Under the pieces are notes generated by a model that was given only the letters and a program-made list of their open reading frames with translations, had not been told where the DNA came from and made no database searches. The position numbers were made by a program, and so were the translations under genes. From Bacteroidota bacterium (GTDB lineage Bacteria; Bacteroidota; Bacteroidia; UBA4408), in contig CAUJCU010000009.1 of the NCBI GenBank assembly GCA_963169745.1, positions 124,001 to 188,000 of the forward strand: DNA of 64,000 nucleotides, in the 5' to 3' direction. Below are positions 16,710 through 23,407 of the stretch, in pieces; position 1 is the stretch's first letter, and each line of letters opens with the position of its first letter.

Positions 16710-18632
16710 TTATTTTAATTGTTGAATTTGCCCATCTGTAAAAGAAATAATAGTGCCGTCCATTTTACTCAACTTAATATTTTTCAAGAGTTGTACTTTA
16801 TCAGGAAAAGCTGTTTCTTTTACCTCTACATTAACAATAGAATCTAAAGTAGCTATTTCTTTATAAACAAAAATTGAAATATCTTTTCGTAAACCTCTAG
16901 GAGAATACTCCTGATTGAAAAGTACTTGCCCTTGAGCAGTGCTTACTTTTACTTGAATGGAACTGCGACTCTTAACAACAGGTTTTAAAGATTGCATTTG
17001 CATTTGCTTGTTAGCAGTTGTTTCCATAAAGGCTGTTGGAGACGAGATATACTTAAAGTTTAAGATGAGTAAATTTTCATCTTTATTAAAGAAAGACAAC
17101 TTGGTGTTGCTAAGTATGGGCATTGCCAAAAAGAAAATACAGATAATAATAATTGATAGAAAATGGTTTGTTTTAGAATAGTCAAGTACTTTCAACATTC
17201 CTCTTCCTTTTTCTTTATCATCCGGAGGGTTATTTAGGGTTTCAACAAATTCTGTTACACGATTTTCAGAATAATGATTAGTTGTAATGAGTTGAATTTT
17301 ATTTATAGGTGCCTTTTTAGAAATAAAAGGAGGGCGTTTACGATTTAACCGGGCAATAGCTAAATCGCGACCATATCGATAATAACAATCTTCGCAGCCT
17401 AGTAATAAAACTCCGTCTGCTTGTCCATTTAAGCTTTGTTCCACATCTTTCATGTGTAAATCACCTAAACAAGGAAGAATTTGCTTGGTATATGTGATGC
17501 CATCTGGCAATTTAACATCATCAAACTGAGAGCACGAGTACACTTTTAATTTTTTGTTATCAGGTAATGGCAAAGGATTAAACTCGGGCATCCCGGGCAT
17601 GGTTATAGCAAATTCTTTACATGAAGCCAAACAAATTCCGCAGCTAATACATTTATCGGGGTCTAATATAGCCTTGCGCTCTCCTTTATATATAAGCATA
17701 TCAATTGCTCCATAAGGGCAATCTTCGGAACAGATGTTACAAGCATCGCATTTATCTAAATCAATTACTGCAGGTTTTTTCTTCTTCTTAAAGAAAAAAG
17801 GTACTAAAGCCAACCCTGTTCCTGATATGAGCATTATAGCCCAGTTCATTGGTACAGAAACAATTTTCATTAAAGCATATCCGAAAAAATAGTACCAATC
17901 AAATGTTGTATTGTAAGGAATGAATCGCTCTTGAGCCGATGGGTCGCTTTTTACAGGAAATACAATACACACAACAACAAGCGCAATGAGCGAGTATATC
18001 CACAAAATACGAGGTGAAAAAACTCTAGGCTTTGCCAGTCGCATCACATGAAGCCACAAAACAATAACCAAAAATATTGAAAAGAATATATGACCGAATA
18101 CAGACACTTTAAAGAATCCACCAATAGTTTCGAGATTATTGGAAATAAAAGAACCTGCAATAGAAGGGTCAAAAAGAGGGAGAGCAGTAAAAAATTTGGC
18201 AGTTAAATAACCAATTAATTTTCCTTTTTCATCCCAAACTAAAATAAAGCCGGTTATTCCAATAATTAATACCACCATTAAAGAAATAATACCACTTACC
18301 CATGATAAGATTCGTTTGAATTTACCGGTGAGCAAGGTTTGAACAAAATGGAGTACTATAAAAATTACCAGTAAGTCACTACTATAACGATGCATACTTC
18401 TAATTACACCGTTAAATGGATTGGCAGAAAGGCGCTCTACTGAATTGTAGGCATGTGCTGGATCAATGTCATAAAATAGAAAAATATAAATACCGCTGAT
18501 ACATGCAATAATAAACATGAGTACAGCAAGGTTTCCAAGATGATAAAGGGGGTTGTATTGTGAGGCGTAAATTTTGCTAAAAATACCGGCAAATCGTTGA
18601 AATAACCAATGGTTAGGTTTTTTGTTACTCAT
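16710..18632 (-). CDS. cytochrome b / ferredoxin / MvhD-like fusion protein
   Basis: 640 residues with an unusual domain chain. Residues 30-200 are a four-helix b6/bc1-type cytochrome b with bis-His haem pairs H81-H181 and H95-H195 (each in-helix spacing 14). Residues 205-280 resemble the start of subunit IV, but the Qo-site PEWY motif reads FDWY (244-247). A KKKKK stretch (282-286) then places two 4Fe-4S sites in the cytoplasm (C295/C298/C301/C305 and C328/C331/C334/C338). Residues 363-425 look like the hydrogenase delta subunit MvhD (C367, C388, C413, C416). A transmembrane helix (488-507) leads to a probable periplasmic domain. Last gene of the haem-copper operon, overlapping the SCO gene by 4 bases. 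It likely exchanges electrons between a cytoplasmic donor and quinone; this is inference. Confidence 0.75.
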   Translation of the reverse strand: MSNKKPNHWLFQRFAGIFSKIYASQYNPLYHLGNLAVLMFIIACISGIYIFLFYDIDPAHAYNSVERLSANPFNGVIRSMHRYSSDLLVIFIVLHFVQTLLTGKFKRILSWVSGIISLMVVLIIGITGFILVWDEKGKLIGYLTAKFFTALPLFDPSIAGSFISNNLETIGGFFKVSVFGHIFFSIFLVIVLWLHVMRLAKPRVFSPRILWIYSLIALVVVCIVFPVKSDPSAQERFIPYNTTFDWYYFFGYALMKIVSVPMNWAIMLISGTGLALVPFFFKKKKKPAVIDLDKCDACNICSEDCPYGAIDMLIYKGERKAILDPDKCISCGICLASCKEFAITMPGMPEFNPLPLPDNKKLKVYSCSQFDDVKLPDGITYTKQILPCLGDLHMKDVEQSLNGQADGVLLLGCEDCYYRYGRDLAIARLNRKRPPFISKKAPINKIQLITTNHYSENRVTEFVETLNNPPDDKEKGRGMLKVLDYSKTNHFLSIIIICIFFLAMPILSNTKLSFFNKDENLLILNFKYISSPTAFMETTANKQMQMQSLKPVVKSRSSIQVKVSTAQGQVLFNQEYSPRGLRKDISIFVYKEIATLDSIVNVEVKETAFPDKVQLLKNIKLSKMDGTIISFTDGQIQQLK

Positions 18633-19405
18633 ATATCTATACTTTCTTCTTTGTTCTTAGAATATAAACTTTTAATTAAAAAATAACCAACTATAATAAT
18701 AAACATAAATCCTGCTGAGGTTTGCATAATAAAACGCCAGTCAAGATGATATGATTTGGAAGCCGGATTAAAGGTAAAACACCGTACATATAGTGAAGTA
18801 AAAAAATTGTTTACGGAAGATTTTTCGATTTGTGCCTCCATAATTGCCAATTTTAAATCTTTGGCCTTAGGCTCAATCCCATATATATATCTGGAAATTC
18901 TGCCACTCGGTGTAACAATTATAACTACGTTAGGATGTAAATATTCTTTACTTTGTTCGTCATAATCATAATGATAATCAACAGAGTTCAGGATGTTTTT
19001 TATATCAGAAGCTGATCCGGTAACTGTTTTCCAGTTTTTTCCATCCATTTTCCAACGCTGTTCAAATCCTTTCAAATCTTCGTTTGTGTCCGTTGTATCA
19101 AATGAGAATGAAACGATGGTGTAATCTTGTCCAAGCCCTCCAATTTCAGCTATAGCTTTTTGCAAACCATTGCTGATTAACGAGCAGGCCATTGGGCATT
19201 TGGTGTAAACAGGCGACAAAACTAAAGGTTTCCCATTTTGCAGGTCGAGCAAACGAGTCTGATTCCCTTTGGAATCACGCACCATGGCATTTTCAACTTT
19301 TCGTGAAATGTATCTTTTCTCGTCAGGTAAATCAAAAGATGAGAGCGTAAAAAACAGGCTTAGTATAACTACTAAGCCTGTGTATTTAGATTTTAAAAAA
19401 AGCAC
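18629..19405 (-). CDS. SCO1/SenC family copper chaperone-like protein
   Basis: Membrane-anchored thioredoxin-fold protein that in the family helps load CuA of haem-copper reductases. 258 residues: signal/anchor at 9-24, the copper site C70-P-M-A-C74 (CxxxC) and the third ligand H157 (YLHPNVV), plus a C-terminal transmembrane helix (about 228-248) that many SCO proteins lack. The usual proline after the second Cys is absent (CSL, not CPL). Its place between subunit I and the cytochrome b fusion fits assembly of the CuA site in the neighbouring subunit II. Confidence 0.85.
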   Translation of the reverse strand: MLFLKSKYTGLVVILSLFFTLSSFDLPDEKRYISRKVENAMVRDSKGNQTRLLDLQNGKPLVLSPVYTKCPMACSLISNGLQKAIAEIGGLGQDYTIVSFSFDTTDTNEDLKGFEQRWKMDGKNWKTVTGSASDIKNILNSVDYHYDYDEQSKEYLHPNVVIIVTPSGRISRYIYGIEPKAKDLKLAIMEAQIEKSSVNNFFTSLYVRCFTFNPASKSYHLDWRFIMQTSAGFMFIIIVGYFLIKSLYSKNKEESIDI

Positions 19406-19429
19406 AATTTATTTTAATAATTTAGAATA

Positions 19430-21097
19430 CTATTTAACCCACCATGTTGCCGCCAACCATTTCCAGTTAACAAAGTACAACACGGCAAAGGTAGCAAGAA
19501 AAAGGAAAGTTAGCACTAAAGTTCCAGGAGCTTCAAATCCTTTATGTTCTTTTGCTGCAGGGGCTAAAGGAGAGATAGTTAACTGCATATCTTCAGGACC
19601 ATTTACTTTAGGTCCAAAGAAAACAGATACGACAACTTGTAATACCCAAAGCAGCGCGGCCAAAAAGGCTAATACACCGCCAAGCATCATAAGTACCCAA
19701 AAGAAGTCAACAGCAGGGTTAAATGAGTGTGTAAAAGGGCCACCACTAAATGAAGAGTCCCAATGTCTGCGAGGCACTCCTAATTGCCCTAAGGCAATCA
19801 TAGAAACCGATAAGATGGCAATGCCGAAGAAGAATAACCATGGCTGAATTTGAGCCAATTTGAAAGCCACAATCTTTCTACGGAATATAAGCGGAATTAA
19901 ATAATAGGTAATACCCATAAAAGTAAGTGTAGTTCCAATAACTACAGTGCCTTTAAAGTGACCGGGAATGGCAATCGTATTATGAACAATAATATTGGTC
20001 TGCTCCATTCCAAAAATAACTCCGGTAGTACCACCAATAAATCCAAATCCTATAGCTGCCAAAACACAAGATGCAAAAGCAGGATTTGACCATGGGGCTT
20101 TTGCCAACCATTCAAACAAACCTTTATTAAATCCCCATCTGCGTTGTGCTGATTCAATAGAACTAGGAACAGCAAAGGCATGAATCATAGAAGCTAATAC
20201 AGCTAAGTACATAGCATAGGAGGTGTTCCATACTTTCCAGGCCGAACTTGTAGCAGGGTCGGTTAGTAAGTGGTGTGCAGAAGCTAAGCTAATAAATAAA
20301 ATATACAAGAAGAAAGCAGTTCTGGATACCCTTTCATTGATAGAAGTACCTCCAATAGCAAGAAACGTAGTGAGATACCAAATACTTACCATTGCGGCCA
20401 CATTTATTTGCTGTGATGAGTGACCAAGACCCCACCAAATTAGCTTGTAAACTGCAGGGTCAACCGAGTCAATAATTCCTAATGACCATAAAAATGTAGG
20501 AATATAAATAATGGCTCCCGAAGCTAGCGTAATTACTGCTAGTATGGCAGCAGTCATTAATCCATAAGTAAATAATGGAAGTGTTTCACCTACATTCTTA
20601 TCTCTTTTAGCATTTACAATGTTGGCAAAAAACAAACCCACTCCAATTAGTGCCCCAACGGCAAACAAAATAATTCCCAGATAATATAGTGGATGGGCTT
20701 TAAGAGGTACATAAGAGGTAAGCATTACATCAGCTTTACCCATAAGCACCATTACATCGGATAGAATTAAGCCGGCCACCATTAATATAAAGGTAAGCCA
20801 CCCCAGTTTAGGAGAGCAAAATTTTTGATTAAGCACTACTGTAGAACCAAAATAAAGCCCGGCTATTTCAAAAAATACAATCCAATAGATGAGTGCATTA
20901 AGTCCATGAAATGTGGTAAGACGGTAATACCATTCTGCATCCAAAAGGTGTACAGGCTGATATCGAGTAAAAATTAACAGAATTGCCGCAACAATTGCCA
21001 TTAATAGGGAAACAACAGCCATTACGGCATTTAACCTGATTAATTTTTCTGAAGTCAGGTCAACTTTAAATCCAGTTATATCGCATGTTCTAAACAT
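19430..21097 (-). CDS. haem-copper reductase subunit I, B-family, altered active site
   Basis: 555-residue catalytic subunit with about 13 membrane helices. It aligns with ba3-type cytochrome c oxidase: low-spin haem His H64 (FHGLNAL), CuB ligands H226 (LGHSSQQ) and H275/H276 (SAHHLLTDP), high-spin haem His H380 (IPGHFKG). Two key positions differ. The cross-linked tyrosine four residues after H226 is Q230, and the second low-spin haem His, normally two residues after H380 (GHFH), is K382. The lost tyrosine recalls the nitric-oxide-reductase branches of the superfamily, so O2 reduction should not be assumed. Flanked by a CuA subunit and a SCO protein; FNR-like box upstream of the operon. Confidence 0.85.
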   Translation of the reverse strand: MFRTCDITGFKVDLTSEKLIRLNAVMAVVSLLMAIVAAILLIFTRYQPVHLLDAEWYYRLTTFHGLNALIYWIVFFEIAGLYFGSTVVLNQKFCSPKLGWLTFILMVAGLILSDVMVLMGKADVMLTSYVPLKAHPLYYLGIILFAVGALIGVGLFFANIVNAKRDKNVGETLPLFTYGLMTAAILAVITLASGAIIYIPTFLWSLGIIDSVDPAVYKLIWWGLGHSSQQINVAAMVSIWYLTTFLAIGGTSINERVSRTAFFLYILFISLASAHHLLTDPATSSAWKVWNTSYAMYLAVLASMIHAFAVPSSIESAQRRWGFNKGLFEWLAKAPWSNPAFASCVLAAIGFGFIGGTTGVIFGMEQTNIIVHNTIAIPGHFKGTVVIGTTLTFMGITYYLIPLIFRRKIVAFKLAQIQPWLFFFGIAILSVSMIALGQLGVPRRHWDSSFSGGPFTHSFNPAVDFFWVLMMLGGVLAFLAALLWVLQVVVSVFFGPKVNGPEDMQLTISPLAPAAKEHKGFEAPGTLVLTFLFLATFAVLYFVNWKWLAATWWVK

Positions 21098-21106
21098 AGT
21101 TCTTTA

Positions 21107-22033
21107 TTATTTAAGTGATTTAATATAGGCAGTTACCTGCTTAATTTCATTAGGGGTAAGATTCATTTGTGCCATTGGAGTTTTCTCAAATCCAACAACA
21201 ATTTGCTTCTGTGGTTCATTAATAGATGAAGCAATGTAATCATCATTTACATCTACTTGTTTTACTTGGCCATTTTCGGTCACTTTTGCTTGCGAACCAT
21301 ATAACCCGTTAAAAGCAGGACCTATAAGCGCTGTGCCGTCTGTTTTGTGACAAGCATTACAACCTTTTAAATTATAAATTGTTTCACCTCCTTTAACAAG
21401 CTGATCCTCACTCCATGCAGATATATCTTCAGGAGCAGCAGTTTCTGTCGTTTTAGGTGGAGCGCTCATTTTGTCATAACCATATTTGGCCATATCGGCA
21501 TCGCTGTCAATAACTACAATTTTTCCAATCATGGTATGGTGCCCAATTCCACAAAATTCATTACAAATTATTTTGGCTTCACCCGATACAGTTGGCTTGA
21601 ATTTCAAAACATAATCATAGTCAGGATAAACTTGAAAATTCATATTTGAAGGTTGTAATGAAAAACCATGTACCAAATCTTTAGATGAAATATGGATATT
21701 GTACCATTCATCTTTTTTAAGTACTAATACCGGAGACCAACGCCACATTTGAGCGAGCAAAACAACATCACTGCCTGGTTCTGGTTTAACCACAGGAATT
21801 CCGTTGTCCATTCCAATCATATTCTTTTTAACGTAGGCATCGTGCAGGTTTGAAAACTCTATAGGATTTGTTTTATAAGTGGTATTTGATGGATTTTGGT
21901 TACCGACTACGTGCCACATAACCATCCATACAAAAAGAAAAATACAAACAATAAAAGATATGATAATCCACATCCTTTCATCTTTGGATACTTTTTTATT
22001 AAACCACCCTTTTTCTGGTGCTATTAATGTCAT
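21107..22033 (-). CDS. haem-copper reductase subunit II with CuA and a fused cytochrome c
   Basis: Electron-entry subunit of 308 residues. One membrane anchor (about 22-42) is followed by a periplasmic cupredoxin domain with the full CuA set H122, C157, E159, C161, H165, M168 (CNEFCGIGHHTM). A C-terminal cytochrome c domain has CNACH (C225, C228, H229) and a methionine ligand M287 or M290 in TPMAQM. The covalent cytochrome c means it need not dock a soluble cytochrome. It lies 9 bases upstream of subunit I and 18 bases after the small subunit. Confidence 0.92.
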   Translation of the reverse strand: MTLIAPEKGWFNKKVSKDERMWIIISFIVCIFLFVWMVMWHVVGNQNPSNTTYKTNPIEFSNLHDAYVKKNMIGMDNGIPVVKPEPGSDVVLLAQMWRWSPVLVLKKDEWYNIHISSKDLVHGFSLQPSNMNFQVYPDYDYVLKFKPTVSGEAKIICNEFCGIGHHTMIGKIVVIDSDADMAKYGYDKMSAPPKTTETAAPEDISAWSEDQLVKGGETIYNLKGCNACHKTDGTALIGPAFNGLYGSQAKVTENGQVKQVDVNDDYIASSINEPQKQIVVGFEKTPMAQMNLTPNEIKQVTAYIKSLK

Positions 22034-22051
22034 AATTTATTAGTTTTAGAG

Positions 22052-22240
22052 TTACTTAAGAATTGATTGTTTTACTGATTCAGGAATATTGGGTACTGTT
22101 GCAATCTCCATAATTCCCCAAATAATGTAGAAAATGGCATAGATTGTTACCCCAAGAAAGAGTAGGAGCATTACATCGTTCATTACCACTTGTAATCCCG
22201 ATGCTGGTTTTTGATCTTGATCTTGTTCTTGTTCGCTCAT
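22052..22240 (-). CDS. small one-helix membrane protein of the haem-copper operon
   Basis: 62 residues: an acidic, glutamine-rich N-terminus (EQEQDQDQ), one transmembrane helix (about 25-46), and a short tail. First gene of the operon, 18 bases before subunit II. Position and size match the accessory one-helix subunits (such as IIa) of B-family reductases, but the sequence itself is not diagnostic. The ATG at 22240 is the only reasonable start. Confidence 0.65.
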   Translation of the reverse strand: MSEQEQDQDQKPASGLQVVMNDVMLLLFLGVTIYAIFYIIWGIMEIATVPNIPESVKQSILK

Positions 22241-22289
22241 AGTGCTAAATTTTTATTGGTTAATGACTAAGGTTAATTTTATTTTATAG

Positions 22290-22297
22290 CAAGAGTA
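22290..22297 (-). promoter_or_regulatory. -7 box of the haem-copper reductase operon
   Basis: The minus strand reads TACTCTTG, one base from TAnnTTTG, 50 bases before the first start codon. The expected -33 element is poor (TAAT). The FNR-like palindrome centred at 22326.5 would then sit about 40 bases upstream of transcription start, the usual place for a class II Crp/Fnr activator that replaces a weak -33 element. Confidence 0.45.
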
Positions 22298-22317
22298 TTA
22301 TATAAAAATGGTTAATA

Positions 22318-22335
22318 TTATGATTCTAATCATAA
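22318..22335. promoter_or_regulatory. FNR/CRP-like operator palindrome
   Basis: Perfect 18-bp palindrome TTATGATTCTAATCATAA. Its core ATGAT-N4-ATCAT differs from the FNR box TTGAT-N4-ATCAA only at the outer base of each half. It lies in the gap between the leftward haem-copper operon and the rightward TauE/SafE gene, much closer to the former. Confidence 0.6.
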
Positions 22336-22588: not shown

Positions 22589-23407
22589 ATGGAACAGTAC
22601 ATTGGGCTTATACCTTTAGGATTTGCTGTAGGCACTTTAGGAACACTAATTGGTGCCGGAGGAGGCTTTATTCTGGCACCTGTGCTTCTTTTGGTTTATC
22701 CGGATAAAAGCCCTGAAACAATTACGAGTATTTCATTAGCAGTTGTTTTTTTTAATGCCTTTTCGGGTTCATTAGCCTATCGCAAAATGAAACGTATAGA
22801 TTATAAATCGGGATGGCTGTTTGCTATAGCAACTGTTCCGGGAGCAATACTTGGGGCATATACTACAACTATTATCCCTCGTCAGCTTTTTAATGGAATT
22901 TTTGGAATTTTGTTAGTCCTTACTGCCCTGTTTTTAATACTTCATCCTGAAAAGAAAAACAAGAATGAAAATGATACAGATTCATTTCTTATAGCTCGTA
23001 GAATAATGGATGCAAACGGGCAGATATATACTTATAAATATAACCCCTGGCTGGGCTTTTTGTTGAGCATTGGGGTAGGTTATTTATCTAGCTTATTAGG
23101 AATAGGTGGAGGCATTATTCATGTTCCGATTTTAGTACAACTATTGAATTTTCCTACTCATATTGCAACGGCAACTTCTCATTTTATTTTGGCCATTATG
23201 GCAGGTACAGGTTCTTTGGTGCATCTTTTTCAGGGTTCTTTAACTGAAGGTATTTATCAAACAATTGCCCTTTCTGTTGGTGTTCTTTTTGGGGCTCCTT
23301 TAGGAGCACGCTTTTCCAAAAAAATTCAAGGTGTATGGATTATTCGTAGCCTAGCCATAGCTTTAGGTTTGGTTGGTTTGAGAATTTTATTGATGATATT
23401 TAAATAA
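22589..23407 (+). CDS. TauE/SafE family membrane transporter
   Basis: 272-residue membrane protein of the TauE/SafE (DUF81) family, putative exporters of sulfite or organosulfonates. It has about eight hydrophobic segments in two repeats, with the two glycine-rich repeat signatures GTLIGAGGGFILAPVLLL (about 19-36) and SLLGIGGGIIHVPILV (about 168-183). Divergent from the haem-copper operon and monocistronic. The substrate is not evident from context. Confidence 0.88.
   Translation: MEQYIGLIPLGFAVGTLGTLIGAGGGFILAPVLLLVYPDKSPETITSISLAVVFFNAFSGSLAYRKMKRIDYKSGWLFAIATVPGAILGAYTTTIIPRQLFNGIFGILLVLTALFLILHPEKKNKNENDTDSFLIARRIMDANGQIYTYKYNPWLGFLLSIGVGYLSSLLGIGGGIIHVPILVQLLNFPTHIATATSHFILAIMAGTGSLVHLFQGSLTEGIYQTIALSVGVLFGAPLGARFSKKIQGVWIIRSLAIALGLVGLRILLMIFK

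Follow-up and report, generated by a model that had tools for sequence, protein, structure and literature searches.

A candidate FNR-type class II activator site in front of an operon predicted to encode an eNOR-type nitric oxide reductase in a Bacteroidota bacterium

We have analysed a palindrome that stands in front of a haem-copper operon in a stretch of 64,000 nucleotides of Bacteroidota DNA, which we call the window. The operon lies downstream of the palindrome on the minus strand and comprises five genes spanning 16710-22240. The first (22052-22240) codes for a small membrane-like protein of 62 aa, which has no match in Pfam or NCBIfam and is conserved beside subunit II in relatives. It is followed by genes for a subunit II (21107-22033) assigned by sequence matches, with a CoxB-like cupredoxin part (TIGR02866, matched below the cut-off) and a C-terminal cytochrome c; for a subunit I of the haem-copper family (19430-21097), which bears GHSSQQINV; for a putative SCO1/SenC-type protein (18629-19405); and for a predicted cytochrome b/4Fe-4S/FlpD-like fusion protein (16710-18632).

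In an alignment with the T. thermophilus ba3 oxidase, Gln230 of subunit I falls on the Tyr of GHPIVYFW, and the same column is occupied by Gln in all 80 loci encoding subunit I relatives that we fetched. Since PMC8756737 takes as the criterion for eNOR a Gln where the oxygen reductases have their cross-linking Tyr, NO reduction is predicted, and the operon probably codes for an eNOR-type NO reductase; the altered active site pointed out by an earlier, sequence-only reading of this DNA is this eNOR signature. As in the gene order expected of an eNOR, a gene for a cupredoxin-type subunit II stands immediately upstream of that for subunit I. An assignment to sNOR or CuANOR was abandoned: at the diagnostic residue the enzyme has Gln where Asn would be required (Table A4 of PMC8756737). 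Another column of subunit I is also altered: the eNOR clade has PGHFK at the site of PGHFH in the ba3 oxidase (residue 382 in the window), with Lys at the column of the second His in 55 of the 80 loci (all the Bacteroidota, Kapabacteria, Aquificota and HR21 loci read) and His in 24, L054 being unreadable. The second His is a low-spin-haem ligand in the ba3 oxidase; with Lys in its place, either the low-spin haem would have unusual His/Lys ligands or this haem would have been lost. The eNOR operon was absent from all seven same-genus or same-family genomes examined, so that its conservation, as described below, rests on genomes reached by protein similarity. MAGs from elsewhere carry an eNOR at 90-94% identity; the distribution is patchy, and the operon has possibly been transferred.

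Read on the minus strand, the octamer CAAGAGTA at 22290-22297 is TACTCTTG, a predicted -7 element of the TAnnTTTG type. In Flavobacterium psychrophilum TAnnTTTG occupies positions -12 to -5 (PMC9723704), and by placing TACTCTTG likewise we predict the transcription start at 22285. The palindrome TTATGATTCTAATCATAA, whose existence we confirmed at 22318-22335, is then centred at a computed -41.5, in agreement with the claim that it lies about 40 bases upstream of a start put at 22286. Position -41.5 is the classical position of a class II activator. The box extends from -50 to -33 and therefore covers the place of the -33 element, which had been called poor and is missing. On the plus strand, toward the divergent TauE-like gene at 22589, no TAnnTTTG was found by eye at 22-24 nt from the palindrome. 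On the minus strand we read it as a candidate Crp/Fnr-type box, TTATGATTAGAATCATAA, its binding by such a protein being a prediction. It had been described as a perfect 18-bp palindrome; its 8-bp arms are indeed perfect, but the central CT is not symmetric, and 16 of the 18 bases pair. The TGAT-N4-ATCA core is present, within a 5-4-5 core that reads ATGAT-N4-ATCAT, and the TTGAT-N4-ATCAA consensus is missed by the replacement of the outer T by A, so that the half-site is ATGAT/TATGA as against the canonical TTGAT. On its geometry and core, the box may be classed as a non-canonical FNR box.

As such, the palindrome is unremarkable. The window contains seven palindromes that have arms of at least 8 separated by 0, 2 or 4 bases; 20 shuffles gave 5.95 on average, and the chance that at least one falls in the 348-bp intergenic region is 0.14. 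In the 2.99-Mb genome the 18-mer is not enriched: when up to one mismatch is allowed, it occurs at 5 places and its reversed control at 8. Nor is ATGAT-N4-ATCAT enriched (8 places against 7); the 16-mer TATGA-N6-TCATA is found at 9 places against 5. With both the bare palindrome and the 5-4-5 core unenriched, the palindrome alone carries no evidential weight. Three of the eight exact ATGAT-N4-ATCAT sites cluster within 7.5 kb (G000:C21:209-217 kb; L192, L015, L014), around genes for an HGD-D-type dehydratase and MobA-like and XdhC-like proteins and adjoining FNR-like and hemerythrin-like genes; these sites are possibly a local regulon.

What far exceeds chance is the position of the box and its conservation across species. 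The five loci nearest to the window (L016-L020) encode a subunit I that is 90-94% identical. In L016, TTATGACACAAGTCATAT stands 20 nt before TAATCTTG, a spacing equal to that of the window, and in L019 and L020, which are near copies of one another, TGATTAAGGTCATA stands at the window's distance from TATTCTTG. In L017 a weaker TGAGTGCTCTCA is found 23 nt before GACTTTTG. L018 has no box at the window's spacing and no -7 box at 22-24 nt; it has ATGAT-N4-ATCAT at -185 from the start codon. Across the four aligned sequences (window, L016, L019 and L020), TGA......TCATA and TAnTCTTG are invariant, and the 20-nt spacers have diverged, with 9/20 (L016) and 6/20 (L019/L020) identities with the window. 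The analysis was extended to 71 eNOR upstream regions, namely the window and 70 of the 80 loci, ten being left out for want of a recognisable small gene or a 200-bp flank. The symmetric TGAN-N4-NTCA occurs in 16 of them, against a mean of 1 and a maximum of 4 in 300 rounds of shuffling, and in none of 70 coding control sequences. In L035, L055 and L068 a partial -7 box (GTCTTTTG, CACCTTTG) follows it at 23 nt, and in L087, from Rokubacteria, TACCTTTG follows it at 24 nt; the remaining matches (L018, L032, L038, L051, L052, L059, L064, L089, L091 and a second one in L035) are not 22-24 nt before a recognisable TAnnTTTG. Our results show that the TGA-N6-TCA core is conserved at a fixed distance in L016 and L019/L020, and more weakly in L017, L035, L055 and L068.

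The same geometry recurs elsewhere. A search of the whole genome for TGA-N6-TCA followed, after 10-38 nt, by TAnnTTTG gave 59 matches against 17 for the reversed pattern, with a spacing peak at 23 nt (8 of the 59, binomial p 9e-4); 14 matches had a spacing of 22-24 nt (p 0.002). The stricter TGATN4ATCA was sought in seven further genomes, where 15 of its 33 matches showed that same spacing (p 3e-7). We inspected 11 of the 14 own-genome sites at 22-24 nt. Two fall inside reading frames (C19:22 kb and C19:61.7 kb), a third stands ahead of what looks by eye like an FtsX-like gene, a fourth ahead of the gene for a 606-aa protein, and a site on C11 has, in the reverse direction, no gene of at least 60 aa within 300 nt. 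Of the remaining six boxes, whose genes include molybdenum-cofactor genes, four precede the tryptophanase gene (at 24 nt); a MobA-like gene (by eye) opposite two genes of the HGD-D (2-hydroxyglutaryl-CoA dehydratase) type; a ModE-like gene, whose listed start overlaps the -7 box and whose true start must therefore be further in; and a cytochrome c gene (C21:27 kb), beside which no nos cluster was seen in the stretches read and whose homologue in genome G102 has a box too. The crp gene at C6:27.5 kb has TGACATTTCTCA 22 nt before TACTTTTG, and an FNR-like gene with a box at 24 nt is immediately followed by two cytochrome c genes and by narGHJI, of which narG and narH exceed their NCBIfam cut-offs. 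Similarly, TGATTGTAATCA lies 23 nt upstream of a weaker -7 box, AATATTTG, before a gene for an Fe-S-repair (RIC-like) protein that matches TIGR03652 below the cut-off and follows an FNR-like gene, that at C10:233 kb. The sequence-only reading had asked for a search for the box near denitrification or NO-response genes: TGA-N6-TCA at a fixed distance from TAnnTTTG recurs before the RIC-like and the FNR-like/narGHJI genes, the 18-mer is unenriched, and the nar promoter itself has no box. The refuting case named in that reading, a palindrome strewn over the genome regardless of promoters, applies to the bare palindrome and not to the core at its fixed distance.

We propose, with a probability of about 0.82, that the box is the class II site, at -41.5, of a Crp/Fnr activator of FNR type that switches on the eNOR-type operon when oxygen falls and/or NO appears. 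The activator would bind the palindrome as a dimer and, when bound, would occupy the place of the missing -33 element and recruit RNA polymerase to a weak promoter of the TAnnTTTG type, so that expression of the NO reductase would follow a fall in oxygen and/or the appearance of NO. The Crp/Fnr activator of the sequence-only reading is supported in that the -41.5 geometry is found again at the promoters of orthologous operons and at further anaerobic genes of the genome, the binding being predicted from sequence. As the altered active site is the eNOR signature, O2- or NO-responsive Crp/Fnr control makes sense. Activation by the box, the identity of the regulator and the signal (O2 or NO) are what we infer.

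Which protein would bind the box? The genome codes for six cNMP/Crp-type proteins, of which four keep Glu and Arg at the recognition positions of the helix: three FNR-like paralogues with N-terminal cysteines (C10:233 kb, C21:216 kb and C10:303 kb) and the cysteine-free C6:27.5 kb protein. With several paralogues in the genome, more than one could bind. The binder is probably one of the three cysteine-bearing paralogues, and our best guess is that at C10:233 kb, because it adjoins the RIC-like gene having the same box. From residue 7 onwards this protein can be aligned with A. fischeri FNR, and it has Cys in three of the four FNR cysteine columns (two N-terminal and the internal one); the third N-terminal column is not Cys, and a further Cys lies nearby. 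PMC1274295 links Arg180 with G3 of the half-site and Glu181 with A6; the Thr180 and Glu181 of the C10:233 kb protein are compatible with the TATGA half-site. The helix likest that of this protein in the L016 genome (GTATESLIR) sits on a receiver-domain fusion, so the binder may differ between relatives. Receiver-domain/Crp fusions of about 350-370 aa, with the helix GTATESLIR or GTASESVIR, are present in the relatives' genomes (L155-L160); their helices resemble that of the window genome's candidate, and they possibly bind the TGA box in L016, L019 and L020.

Binding by another paralogue, such as the C6:27.5 kb protein, would make the activator DNR/NnrR-like and NO-responsive and not an Fe-S oxygen sensor. 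The recognition helix of this protein, VETIIR, is of FNR type, its own gene carries the box, and eNOR and the RIC-like protein are targets that suit NO as the signal; but the gene adjoins neither an eNOR nor a RIC-like gene, the RIC-like gene has the C10:233 kb protein's gene as its neighbour, and the proteins encoded upstream of eNOR in relatives bear cysteines, unlike this one. We regard it as an unlikely binder. The palindrome could instead be the operator of a repressor, a Crp/Fnr-like or other dimer that blocks the promoter under oxygen, for a protein bound over the -33 region could also exclude polymerase. Repressor sites are usually looser in position, and a box that keeps 23 nt from the -7 element in different genes and genomes, together with weak or partial -7 and -33 elements, is better suited to contact activation, which renders a repressor improbable here. 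A chance palindrome without function is in keeping with the lack of genome-wide enrichment of the 18-mer and with the probability of about 14% that such a palindrome arises in this region; the exact -41.5 position, the conservation in L016 and L019/L020, the enrichment in eNOR upstream regions and the genome-wide spacing peaks make it very improbable.

A second architecture was observed among the relatives. In 33 of the 80 loci an FNR-like gene is located upstream of eNOR on the same strand; 28 of these genes lie within some 400 bp of the operon, the other five 1.2-2.0 kb away. Such loci are among L021-L050, L055, L056, L060, L068, L075 and L017, and a TACG-N4-CGTA palindrome usually stands between the FNR-like gene and the operon. 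The 32 neighbour proteins with a readable helix have TTK[E/Q]Q[V/I]S, all of them with a CxxC pair near the N-terminus, and in a tree they stand apart from five window-genome proteins with a support of 96/89, two of the five being very long branches. Among the 58 loci with enough flank and a recognisable small gene, the eNOR promoter contains TACG-N4-CGTA in 27 of 32 with the neighbour versus 2 of 26 without it (Fisher p 4e-9, ignoring relatedness), one of these two, L019, being a weak match far from the promoter. Of 29 loci in which the TACG box lies 97-135 nt before the gene, 23 have TAnn[T/C]TT[G/A] at 57-59 nt from its centre, and 16 of them at exactly 58 nt, which puts the centre near -70.5. 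L055 and L068 have both TGA and TACG boxes, and L017 and L075 have the neighbour without the TACG box. Our first idea of an Rrf2/NsrR operator was displaced, since the FNR-like gene upstream in 33 loci makes a Crp/Fnr operator more likely for the TACG box. An exact search of 12 neighbour-bearing genomes gave 24 matches, 11 with a gap of 51-53 nt (nine eNOR promoters and two in G113); as the others scatter and the reversed control is higher in all but one genome, no second recurrent target was seen in these 12. AATACG-N4-CGTATT has no exact match in the window genome (six places with one mismatch, where the reversed control gave 10), none of the six cNMP/Crp-type proteins of that genome bears the TTKEQVS helix, and the window's lineage has no neighbouring FNR-like gene at the operon. 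At what we would call even odds, the promoter has been rewired: in many Bacteroidota eNOR would be controlled by a dedicated FNR-like regulator that is encoded next to it and has an altered specificity (TTKEQVS), acting through TACG-N4-CGTA near -70.5 on apparently one target per genome, and the window's lineage would be tied to a general FNR-type anaerobic regulon via the class II TGA-N6-TCA at -41.5.

What is the meaning of such a site? According to PMC8756737, eNOR often figures in annotations as an ordinary cytochrome oxidase. An FNR-type box at its promoter is independent, testable support for a low-oxygen/NO role in Bacteroidota, and is relevant to the production of N2O. Although promoters in this phylum are unusual, those of class II under Crp/Fnr control can be predicted by the 23-nt rule from TGA-N6-TCA to TAnnTTTG. 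The TACG box and the regulator encoded beside it form a pair suited to binding tests. Our searches of the open-licence PMC literature brought up no account of eNOR being controlled by Crp/Fnr proteins, or of TGA or TACG boxes in Bacteroidota.

An FNR-type class II site at an NO reductase is of an already known kind. As in the FNR, DNR and NnrR class II denitrification promoters (TTGAT-N4-ATCAA; PMC1274295), there is a TGAT-N4-ATCA core at the class II position, an NO reductase as the target, and Crp/Fnr proteins with Glu and Arg as recognition residues. Unlike in those promoters, the half-site is ATGAT/TATGA, the promoter is of the Bacteroidota TAnnTTTG type, the target is an eNOR and not a cNOR or qNOR, and the regulator is putative. 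The TACG-N4-CGTA of the relatives, absent from the window, is akin to HcpR2-type sites (GTAAC-N4-GTTAC, from the same source) in its 4-N4-4 core, changed recognition residues and few targets, but differs in its bases, in the TTKEQVS helix and in its place upstream of eNOR and not hcp. Compared with the eNOR described in PMC8756737, the enzyme predicted here has the same Gln at the Tyr column and a cupredoxin subunit II beside subunit I, and is distinguished by a cytochrome c domain in subunit II, by the additional small protein, SCO1 and cytochrome b/4Fe-4S protein, and by Lys in place of the haem-ligand His.
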